Of a DNA stretch of 25,349 bases, positions 1 to 3,351 are shown piece by piece. The notes beneath the pieces were generated by a model. It worked only from the letters and a program-made list of their open reading frames with translations, did no database searches and was not told where the DNA came from. The DNA lies in IMG/VR virus record IMGVR_UViG_3300021335_000082, positions 1 through 25,349 of that record. One strand, given 5' to 3'. Within the stretch, counting starts at the first letter, position 1. Each line of letters starts with the position of its first letter. The translations under genes and the position numbers were made by a program. The stretch is from a virus.

Positions 1-109
1 AAGATGATGCTGTTAGTTTTTTAATAAACGTCATGCTACCTAAAGAAGTAATGCTACCAAAAGCTGTTGCGTTAGATACTGCTTTGTTATTTAATTTTAT
101 AAGTGCCAT
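1..109 (-). CDS. Fibre-tip paralogue, 3' end cut by window edge
   Basis: Thirty-six codons from an ATG at 109 run off the left edge with no stop. The protein starts MALIKLNNKAVSNATAFGS and reaches KKLTASS, the same plan as the next gene (MALVKYNNNS...KTLTASS), so it is a further copy of the tandem fibre-tip family. Its ATG overlaps the upstream stop as TAATG, which suggests translational coupling. It is very probably a virion tip or receptor-contact protein, but only the N-terminus is visible. Confidence 0.7.
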   Translation of the reverse strand, partial: MALIKLNNKAVSNATAFGSITSLGSMTFIKKLTASS

Positions 110-747
110 TAACTATCCTTTATTCCATAGAGTTTAATTTTTCCAGCATCTATGTTGCCAGAACTCATTTGAAATCTAATAGCATCTACAGCACTTGTTG
201 TATTTCCATAACCAGCAATAAAAGCATTAACAGACCAAGGTGTAGAATAATAACTCATGTGATTTCCATTATATAAAAAATGTTTTACAAATGTTGTAGA
301 ACTAGGATTAAATAAATACATACTACCACAAGCACTTGCATCATCATCAACGCCTAATTCAATTTCTGGTGTTAGATTTTGAAATGCTGTACTTTGTGCT
401 AAATCTTGTGAACTATTGTATCCTACTCCTACACTTGTATCATTTTCTCTGTGGTAAGCATCAAATACAGTAGTTGTTTTTGTTACATTATAGTTAGAAC
501 CACTATCTGTACTTAAATTAAATCCTAATGTTTGTTCTGAACCACTTGCTCTATGAATATTTATTAAATCTAATCTATAAATAGGATATGTGCTATCCAA
601 GACTACTCCATCAGTTCCATGTACGAATGACAATGTTGCAGAACTACTAGCAGTTAAAGTTTTAATTGGTACTAAAGAACCACTAGGTATTGAAGCAGCA
701 GCAGTTACAGCACTTATGCTATTGTTGTTGTATTTAACTAATGCCAT
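109..747 (-). CDS. Putative fibre-tip protein (tandem paralogue)
   Basis: This 212-aa protein is rich in Ser, Thr, Asn and Gly and has the look of a beta-structured phage fibre head. It is clearly paralogous to the gene at 734-1336: both carry TASSSAT near residue 35, DLAQST followed by FQ, a PSSTTFVKHF block, and a C-terminus of the form SSGN-x-D-x-G-x-IKLYGI. That C-terminal motif is typical of fibre tips in marine phages. The start lies 14 nt inside the upstream gene, with GGAG about 12 nt before the ATG. No enzyme motif is visible. Role in receptor contact is inferred from position at the end of the fibre cluster. Confidence 0.72.
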   Translation of the reverse strand: MALVKYNNNSISAVTAAASIPSGSLVPIKTLTASSSATLSFVHGTDGVVLDSTYPIYRLDLINIHRASGSEQTLGFNLSTDSGSNYNVTKTTTVFDAYHRENDTSVGVGYNSSQDLAQSTAFQNLTPEIELGVDDDASACGSMYLFNPSSTTFVKHFLYNGNHMSYYSTPWSVNAFIAGYGNTTSAVDAIRFQMSSGNIDAGKIKLYGIKDS

Positions 748-1336
748 ATAATTTTATTACTCCACTATCCATGTTGCCAGATGACATTTTAAATTGAACT
801 CCATCAATGGCTGTTGTGGTATTACAATAACCAGCCATAGAACAATCAAAAGTATAATCACCACTATAATACATATTTACTCTTGAATAAAAATGTTTTA
901 CGAAAGTTGTACTGCTTGGCGAAAATAAATGTAAAGTTCCAGCACAGCTTTCATCATTACCATTACCTATTGTTTTTGTTACTGGTTGAAAAGATGTTGA
1001 TTGTGCTAAATCATCACCTGAACCATATCCTAATGAAGCACCAGCTCCACCTTCTCCATGCTCTGCAGTAAAAAAAGTTGTAGTTTTAACAGCATCATAA
1101 GCTGTACTTCCATCTCTAAAACCTACTGTTAATTTTACATCATTAGTTGCTGGGTGTATGTCATAAAACTTAAACACATAAGAATCATAAGTAGAATCTA
1201 TGCCAGATGTAAAAGATATTGTAGCTGAACTAGATGCAGTTTGTGTAGCTAATAAAGTCATACCACCACCACTAATACTTGATGGTAATGCAGTTATATT
1301 TGCAAGAGAGGAGTTGTTGGCAAGGTTAATAGCCAT
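734..1336 (-). CDS. Putative fibre-tip protein (tandem paralogue)
   Basis: A 200-aa low-complexity, beta-rich protein with AGGAG upstream of its ATG. It shares the blocks TASSSAT, DLAQSTSFQ, PSSTTFVKHF and MSSGN-x-D-x-G-x-IKLYGI with the gene just downstream. The middle regions differ greatly in sequence, as expected if exposed loops diverge while a scaffold is conserved. The C-terminal domain of the 312-aa gene at 1561-2499 belongs to the same group. It probably assembles at the distal end of the tail fibres. The exact receptor and the oligomeric state cannot be read from sequence. Confidence 0.72.
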   Translation of the reverse strand: MAINLANNSSLANITALPSSISGGGMTLLATQTASSSATISFTSGIDSTYDSYVFKFYDIHPATNDVKLTVGFRDGSTAYDAVKTTTFFTAEHGEGGAGASLGYGSGDDLAQSTSFQPVTKTIGNGNDESCAGTLHLFSPSSTTFVKHFYSRVNMYYSGDYTFDCSMAGYCNTTTAIDGVQFKMSSGNMDSGVIKLYGIS

Positions 1337-1339
1337 TGA

Positions 1340-1552
1340 TTAAACTCCTATTAGTGCTTTAACTTCTTCTTCGGATAATCCTAAGTCTAGTAACTTTTGT
1401 TTGCCAGATGCTTTTTTAGTTATAGCGTTTGCCTTTGCATCTATCTCTGCTTGTTTTTCAATAGCAAATTGTGCTTCTTCATTATCTCTTGCAGTTTCTT
1501 CTGCTGCTGTGAATTGTACTTTTGTTCCGTTTATTAAATTATATCTTGTCAT
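1340..1552 (-). CDS. Small fibre-associated protein, possible fibre assembly chaperone
   Basis: A 70-aa charged, helical protein with AAAGGA before its ATG. The middle is Ala/Glu-rich (ETARDNEEAQFAIEKQAEID). The C-terminus LLDLGLSEEEVKALIG resembles the C-terminus of the 89-aa protein at 2502-2771 (KLKALGLTDAEIEAFRG). Both sit directly next to a fibre gene. Small acidic helical proteins in this position are often fibre assembly or attachment factors in tailed phages, so that role is a reasonable inference but unproven. Confidence 0.6.
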   Translation of the reverse strand: MTRYNLINGTKVQFTAAEETARDNEEAQFAIEKQAEIDAKANAITKKASGKQKLLDLGLSEEEVKALIGV

Positions 1553-1560
1553 AAATTCCT

Positions 1561-2499
1561 TTAATGTTTTAATCCGTATAATGTTATTGTTCCAGCATCA
1601 AAATTTCCAGCCGATGGATAAATTGTAAATCCTGTCAAAGCAGCTGCACTAGCTGAATATGTTCCAGCAATATGATGATGATAAAACCATGTGTCACTTC
1701 CATTGTCATAAATATTATGAGCAGAACCAAAAAAATATTTTGCATAAGAAGTGTTTAATGGGTCATGTAAATGAAAATTAAAGTAAACGGCTCTTTTTGC
1801 TGCATTACTATCAGTATTATTACTTATGGATACAGTTGAAGCTAATTTAAAAAATGCTGATCTATCTGCATTATTATCTTCTTCCATAGCACCATTTGAA
1901 TTTTGAAGTCTAATTGTGTTTTGAGTCCAAATATAATTACTGGCTGTTACATCTGAATTACTTTCTCTAAATCTCATGTATATACTGGTATCAGCGTCTG
2001 GTCTTATAGATGAACCTATAATAAAATAATTTTTATAAGTAGATGAAAAAAGACCATTAAAAGTTACTGCAGTTGTATTTGCTGATATAGTTGATGTTGA
2101 AAGTTTAACCATATCACCACCACCAGGAGCTGCAAAAGTATTATCTCCTCTTAAAAAAGTTGTAGCATCTTTAGTTCCTGTTGCTGTTAGTTTAGCAAGT
2201 GAAACTGTACTGTCAGATGGTACACCAAGATCAAGAACTGAACCTAGTATCTGAATAAAATTTATAACATCTCCTGTAACTAAGTTAGATGCAAAGGTAA
2301 TTGTAGAACCAGATACAGTATAAGAACTGCCTGGTGCTTGTAAAATACCATTCAAACTAACTAGCATATGATTAGCAGTTTCTGGTACTACATTAACTCC
2401 ACCTACTTGCATAGTGTATGCTGCTTGACCATTTACAACACTTATTGCATCACAAACTTGAAAGTTTCCTACTGTTGGTTCTCTGCCTATATATGCCAT
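1561..2499 (-). CDS. Fibre protein with MAYIG N-terminus and tip-like C-terminal domain
   Basis: A 312-aa protein with GAGG upstream of its ATG. Residues 1-130 form a typical marine-phage fibre N-terminal module: MAYIGREPTVGNFQ, then a beta-rich stretch with an SLNGILQ motif, then TKDATTFLRGDNTFAAPGGG. The C-terminal half ends SAGNFDAGTITLYGLK, matching the LYGI terminus of the tip paralogues at 1-1336. The gene therefore reads as an attachment module fused to the tip domain that its downstream neighbours carry alone. Virion attachment through the N-terminus and host contact through the C-terminus are inferred. Confidence 0.75.
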   Translation of the reverse strand: MAYIGREPTVGNFQVCDAISVVNGQAAYTMQVGGVNVVPETANHMLVSLNGILQAPGSSYTVSGSTITFASNLVTGDVINFIQILGSVLDLGVPSDSTVSLAKLTATGTKDATTFLRGDNTFAAPGGGDMVKLSTSTISANTTAVTFNGLFSSTYKNYFIIGSSIRPDADTSIYMRFRESNSDVTASNYIWTQNTIRLQNSNGAMEEDNNADRSAFFKLASTVSISNNTDSNAAKRAVYFNFHLHDPLNTSYAKYFFGSAHNIYDNGSDTWFYHHHIAGTYSASAAALTGFTIYPSAGNFDAGTITLYGLKH

Positions 2500-2501
2500 A
2501 A

Positions 2502-2771
2502 TTATTTTCCTCTAAATGCTTCTATTTCAGCATCAGTTAATCCTAATGCTTTTAATTTGTTTTGTGCTGATGTTTTGTTATCTATAACTGCTTGTGCTTC
2601 TGCATCTAACTCATTTTGTGCTTGTGTTAATTTAGCTTCTATATCGGATTTAGAAATAGCACTTGTTCCATCTTCCCAAGTAATACTATCTAAATCATTT
2701 CCAGAAATAGAAAGTCTTGCATCTGAATTTATAATTTTTACTGCTCTAATTATTGCGTCTGTTGTTGCCAT
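2502..2771 (-). CDS. Small fibre-associated protein, possible fibre assembly chaperone
   Basis: An 89-aa acidic protein with AGGAG before its ATG, placed between the two MAYIG fibre genes with gaps of 2 nt or less. It has a predicted helical middle (AKLTQAQNELDAEAQAVID) and ends LKALGLTDAEIEAFRG, the motif shared with the 70-aa protein at 1340-1552. The N-terminal 45 residues (MATTDAIIRAVKIINSDARL) are different from that paralogue. Function as an assembly factor for the adjoining fibre is inferred from position and size only. Confidence 0.6.
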   Translation of the reverse strand: MATTDAIIRAVKIINSDARLSISGNDLDSITWEDGTSAISKSDIEAKLTQAQNELDAEAQAVIDNKTSAQNKLKALGLTDAEIEAFRGK

Positions 2772-2772
2772 A

Positions 2773-3351
2773 TTATGCTCCTATCTCAAATGCTGTTATT
2801 ACTGCGTGTGGACCATTTGCAGAAACTTTTGCTGTATTTCCATTAGTGCCTCTCATATATACTTGATACGTTAATTCTGAAGTAGAATTTGGACTATCTA
2901 AAAATGTCATAGTTATATTTGTATAAACATTAGGCATTTGTACTGCAAGACCAGATGAACTATCTCCTAAATTTGTACTATCTCTAAATATTGTATAGTA
3001 TGCATTTTCGCCAGTTCCTGTATTTTGAACAGGAGTATGGCATATAACAAAAATTTTACTTGAAGTTGCTGATGGTGTTATATCAACTGATAAAGTGTTT
3101 GAACCAGTTGCAAAAGAAGTAGAGCTTGTTGTTCTTGTTGTGCCATCTTCAGCAGTAACAACTTGTAAAAGTTTTCCACCACCACCAATTAAACTAGCAT
3201 CTAATCTTTTTAAAACACCAGCATCACTAATTAAAAATTCATCTGTATCAGCAGGAGCTACTGCTAAAGCTGTTTGACCAGTAATAACTGTTGGATCAAG
3301 ATCACTTGCTACAACTGGTTTGTTAGCTGGTTTAGAACCTATATATGCCAT
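2773..3351 (-). CDS. Fibre protein with MAYIG N-terminus
   Basis: A 192-aa protein starting MAYIGSKPANKPVVASDLDP, the same N-terminal signature as the gene at 1561-2499, followed by VITGQTALAVAPADTDEFLI, a module common in phage fibre and collar proteins. A GGGG linker near residue 58 leads into a C-terminal beta-rich domain (SVDITPSATSSKIFV, then TVYMRG-like strands). It lacks the LYGI terminus. The start has GGAT as a weak ribosome site. It is probably a short fibre or a fibre connector. Confidence 0.7.
   Translation of the reverse strand: MAYIGSKPANKPVVASDLDPTVITGQTALAVAPADTDEFLISDAGVLKRLDASLIGGGGKLLQVVTAEDGTTRTTSSTSFATGSNTLSVDITPSATSSKIFVICHTPVQNTGTGENAYYTIFRDSTNLGDSSSGLAVQMPNVYTNITMTFLDSPNSTSELTYQVYMRGTNGNTAKVSANGPHAVITAFEIGA

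Follow-up and report, generated by a model that had tools for sequence, protein, structure and literature searches.

A set of three adjacent paralogous genes at the left edge of the analysed viral DNA probably encodes three different subunits of one receptor-binding tip on a pelagiphage tail fibre, as judged from sequence comparison; the tip would be a hetero-oligomer and most likely a heterotrimer. In these proteins, ~60 residues at the N-terminus and ~10 at the C-terminus are locked to the position of the gene and co-inherited as a set, and the middle ~120 residues move singly between phages and sometimes between positions. The DNA analysed (hereafter the window) is an entire IMG/VR viral record of 25,349 bases, and its genes identify it as a fragment of an HTVC010P-group pelagiphage. 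The nearest relative of its large terminase was that of pelagiphage HTVC106P (51%), followed by other HTVC010P-group phages, and its capsid gene matched SU10_MCP in the Pfam scan. Pelagiphages of the HTVC010P type rank among the most abundant viruses of the sea (PMC10504331). The host is probably SAR11, which is supported by the presence of a complete triplet on a single contig (L238) recorded under Pelagibacteraceae (isolate AG-439-N16, which is probably a single-cell genome). We claim no narrower link between triplet and host: the three triplet-bearing isolates were all isolated on HTCC1062, yet other HTCC1062 phages do not carry the triplet. Another complete triplet lies on a contig (L237) that is assigned to a metagenome-assembled genome of Campylobacteraceae but is probably a mis-binned phage contig.

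Table 1 Features at the left edge of the 25,349-base window.
Feature	Coordinates	Strand	Evidence or remark
Copy 3, position-3 frame, first 36 residues	2..109	-	Open-ended, cut by the contig end; position-3 N-terminal signature MALIKLNNKAVSNATAFGS
Copy 2, position-2 frame, 212 aa	109..747	-	PHROG 14820, E = 1.3e-86; 14-nt overlap with copy 1
Copy 2, exchangeable head	163..537	-	Head segment mapped approximately
Copy 1, position-1 frame, 200 aa	734..1336	-	PHROG 14820, E = 1.6e-82; C-terminus SGVIKLYGIS
Copy 1, exchangeable head	788..1147	-	Head segment mapped approximately
Small gene between fused gene and triplet	1340..1552	-	First 30 residues tail-fibre-assembly-like
Fused fibre gene, 312 aa	1561..2499	-	PHROG 18673 tail fiber, E = 1e-67
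Small gene upstream of fused gene	2502..2771	-	C-terminal block in common with the gene at 1340..1552

All open reading frames from which the preliminary description had deduced a tandem array of related tip domains were present, and their similarities were far above chance. Copies 1 and 2 were 46% identical across 211 aa (E = 8e-55), and both gave full-length matches to the PHROG 14820 profile. The 36-residue fragment of copy 3 was 58% identical to copy 2 (E = 1e-8) and 44% identical to copy 1 (E = 3e-6). We typed this fragment as the third copy because of its place and because its N-terminus was closest to position 3, with 67% identity to the nearest position-3 protein versus 44% and 39% to positions 1 and 2 (ungapped count). 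Its start lies within a TAATG stop/start overlap of copy 2. The PSSTTFVKHF block and LYG terminus that had been ascribed to it are not visible, as only the N-terminal 36 residues fall within the window. The C-terminal half of the fused gene showed 29% identity to copy 1 (E = 3e-15) and 26% to copy 2 (E = 1e-11). Of the four copies counted at the outset, three hold as stand-alone paralogues, and the fused one is a remote member rather than an equal.

The fused gene consists of a conserved MAYIG module (residues 1–126) and a C-terminal domain (residues 127–312) with the fold of the copies. Between this gene and the triplet lies a small gene (1340–1552) whose product shared 67% identity with HTVC019P gp48 across 30 aa and 53% with HTVC010P gp33, both of which belong to phrog_4912, tail fiber assembly. 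A C-terminal block of the small gene recurs in the gene at 2502–2771 (KLLDLGLSEEEVKALIG / KLKALGLTDAEIEAFRG, 43.6% over 39 aa), and from its sequence the small gene looks as if it were a mosaic of an assembly-like N-terminus and the block of its neighbour. A second MAYIG gene at 2773–3351 bears a different head (LLQVVTAEDGTT...), which by eye resembles in type the heads that HTVC106P and HTVC203P carry on their single-gene adaptors.

The AF2 single-chain model of copy 2 (pLDDT 87.8, pTM 0.82) contained 24 disordered N-terminal residues followed by a twelve-stranded beta fold. The C-terminal domain of the fused gene was modelled with a pLDDT mostly of 80–96 and the same strand order as copy 2, and the unrelated folds that would have spoken against a common domain were not the outcome. 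Its N-terminal module (residues 1–126) gave a pLDDT below 50 and no confident fold. The best solved folds in the VIA comparison, which bear on a concanavalin A-like or galectin-type lectin fold, were GH32 C-terminal domains and galectin sandwiches, at a modest Z of 7–8 for copy 2 and up to 9.4 for the fused domain, values near the level of a common arrangement. At E ≤ 0.001, structure comparison gave 108 matching predicted viral proteins and, with Foldseek, none in the PDB. A PDB sequence search with an 11-copy profile gave no match at E up to 1, and with the same cutoff Pfam scanning did not detect the collar domain PF07484. No Pfam family matched the stand-alone copies, and Pfam C1q was matched by none of the ten proteins scanned, a result that concerns sequence matches and not a relation at the level of the fold.

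More than 200 viral loci were retrieved by searches with copies 1 and 2, with the fused gene and with a profile of 75 copies. After removal of duplicates, 134 unique arrays complete on both sides remained on public viral contigs. Results showed that the triplet is fixed: 126 of the 134 arrays contained three copies (125 before inclusion of L145, whose first copy has a long 5' open frame), three contained six and one contained four, and the remaining four 'singles' were fused or remote relatives. Two separate arrays were found on each of 20 contigs. Three copies in the same order were also present in the isolates HTVC010P and HTVC034P and in the autographivirus HTVC019P, i.e., in two phage groups, and in all three they were flanked by a MAYIG-type gene and a tail-fibre-assembly gene. 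A tail-fibre-assembly-like gene followed the last copy in 132 of the 154 arrays with room for it. When typed by frame, 136 of the 146 three-copy arrays ran 1-2-3 and ten had an atypical order. Copies 1 and 2 overlapped by 14 nt in 66 arrays and by 1 nt in 26, and copies 2 and 3 by 1 nt in 92; such conserved overlapping reading frames are as expected under coupled translation.

Larger arrays were also observed. The sole complete four-copy array (L247:2053-4601) has an extra copy with an N-terminus of its own before the triplet. Six-copy arrays (L103, L079, L045, L035, L063 and L082) consist of two abutting triplets, the first of which has other N-termini that typed poorly on the three standard frames; judged by these termini, it may represent a second set of position types.

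We divided the copies into a 'frame' (residues 1–60 plus the last ten) and a 'head' (alignment columns 69–190, ~120 residues). When 399 unique copies were placed on a tree, the label for position changed 29 times, versus 192 times after shuffling. The separation was sharper in the frame tree (10 versus 218 changes) and largely lost in the head tree (170 versus 222). In 134 clean triplets, frame distances were correlated between positions (Mantel r 0.43, 0.48 and 0.70), whereas for head distances r was 0.05, 0.10 and 0.05, although this missing head signal may partly reflect saturation, the heads being ~46% identical, rather than exchange. These results indicate that the frames are locked to their positions and inherited together.

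A different arrangement was found in the sister phages HTVC035P, HTVC203P and HTVC106P, in which the place of the triplet is taken by one gene with the adaptor MAIIKPNNNT-SAITALP and, among the three phages, two unrelated heads. A search with that gene recovered 62 loci with the adaptor MAIIKPNNNT, and every one of them had a single full gene. Eight of their heads clearly belonged to the present family, and the remainder were mostly of another type. A tail-fibre-assembly gene, sought by profile, followed 3 of 57 such loci. A lone gene of this kind is as expected where a homomer replaces a heteromer, and we infer that a trimeric tip would need a single gene to be a homomer and a set of three different genes to be a heteromer. 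Just upstream of the single-adaptor gene, four loci (L322, L323, L327 and L338) carry an identical 28-residue ORF (MAIIKPNNNTISASLNKFNKDEEILRCL), which repeats the start of the adaptor and then stops, and which overlaps the full adaptor gene. It may be an exchange remnant or a conserved short peptide.

The idea that the triplet works like a heterotrimeric tip draws on gene order and evolution. Trimerisation and receptor binding of its proteins are likewise deduced, and their location in the virion is suggested only by the neighbouring genes. In such a tip, the position-specific ends would form the assembly interfaces that place each subunit, and the loops of the middle beta-sandwich would touch the cell surface. 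The overlapping frames would keep the amounts of the subunits matched. Each tip would present three different heads, or six with two triplets, allowing combinatorial binding, and recombination in the conserved flanking sequence would trade heads and thereby change binding. The fuller version of this model, an obligate heterotrimer with end-coded assembly whose heads are freely traded across positions and phage families from a shared marine pool, we rate at somewhat under an even chance.

The strongest competitor of the heterotrimeric tip, which we consider unlikely but well short of negligible, is that the genes encode three independent receptor-binding proteins, each forming a homotrimer on its own attachment site and together providing three specificities at once. 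Such an arrangement would also yield a fixed set of three; its position-specific N-termini could equally address three sockets, and the nearly independent evolution of the heads fits it. By itself, however, it gives no reason for threes instead of twos or fours, and it leaves unexplained both the tight co-inheritance of frames across the three positions and the fact that the single adaptor type always stands alone.

Head exchange was evident between different phages. In comparisons of otherwise unrelated arrays, ≥72% head identity was reached by 74 pairs at the same position and by at least 27 pairs at different positions, the latter being 72–96% identical. De-duplication had dropped arrays that were identical over a C-terminal stretch of 120 residues, so that these numbers are counts rather than rates. 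In the aligned DNA of head-sharing pairs, identity was mostly 30–60% over the first ~60 codons, rose mostly to 80–100% through the head and dropped again in the last codons. For example, the nearest head to that of copy 2 in the window (74%) occupied position 1 in another phage (L097), and in HTVC010P the head of copy 3 was 82% identical to that of a copy 2 (L054) and the head of copy 2 was 75% identical to that of a copy 1 (L072). Exchange of whole heads does not resemble the adenine-directed mutation of the targets of diversity-generating retroelements. Head exchange may plausibly affect host range.

Within single genomes the outcome was different. None of 561 within-array head pairs exceeded 65% identity (maximum 64.8%); this null is close to the between-array rate, which means that frequent conversion is absent and does not imply active avoidance. 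The exchange between copies that had been proposed therefore holds between phages but not within one genome. Head sharing between the fused gene and the stand-alone copies was not found either, the best value among 116 fused proteins being 41.6%. The N-terminal module of the fused gene is up to ~90% identical across several phages and its C-terminal part is variable, and the gene appears, by sequence, to draw on a separate head pool. It is thus very improbable that the array is a cassette store from which gene conversion within one genome copies spare heads to the fused fibre or from one stand-alone gene to another, even though the paralogues are adjacent, their flanking blocks are conserved and cross-position exchanges do exist; full frames and overlapping start and stop codons are, moreover, kept in all three genes. 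Of the 'cassette store or multi-subunit tip' first suggested, the tip is the better half, with an ordered, seemingly obligate triplet and position-specific ends, and the store lacks support.

Slightly more doubtful still is the possibility that the head swaps are metagenome-assembly chimeras formed at conserved blocks. The data are mostly metagenomic contigs with conserved flanks, but the swapped heads are 72–96% and not 100% identical, which points to divergence after exchange, and the sequenced isolate HTVC010P was a partner in two cases; both observations make chimeras an unlikely cause. Ordinary tandem duplication of a tail-fibre gene, retained through chance or gene dosage and without any division into subunits, would account for homologous neighbours. 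It would not account for the strict typing by position, the gene order and the occurrence in multiples of three that hold in different phage families, and it is the least credible explanation of all.

The closest working analogue is the tripartite tail of the virophage DSLV2 (Dishui Lake virophage 2), for which the available text of the report describes three consecutive paralogous tail genes of ~200–250 aa whose co-expressed products form a 1:1:1 complex that binds cells (PMC12724248). As in the pelagiphage triplet, the genes are consecutive and same-position proteins cluster across genomes. The DSLV2 proteins, however, have a phage collar domain (PF07484) and are similar to T4 gp37, whereas the pelagiphage copies match no Pfam family; and that text describes parallel diversification but not the cross-position head exchange seen here (PMC12724248). 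Mizuno et al. reported, in the portion of the paper at hand, hypervariable heads of C1q-domain and T7-like tail-fibre proteins in metaviromic islands of HTVC010P-like pelagiphages (PMC3909814). These proteins share with the triplet the phage group, the host-recognition region, a conserved N-terminal part and a hypervariable head, and the same portion does not mention the triplet (PMC3909814). In Alteromonas phages, a host-recognition module with its cognate chaperone is common to distantly related phages, according to the accessible part of that study (PMC10579305). The triplet with its assembly gene in HTVC010P and HTVC019P is likewise common across phage families, but the Alteromonas module, as presented there, comprises one tail fibre with a chaperone rather than three position-locked subunits (PMC10579305). 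PHROG 14820 is an unannotated phage family of unknown function in which the three position types are not distinguished. We found no description of the triplet in the open-access papers searched.

The boundary between frame and head guides the choice of protein segments for expression and for comparison, and the heteromer question is directly testable with three small proteins. If the three-head tip is true, host specificity in these phages would have to be read from a combination of heads and not from one gene.
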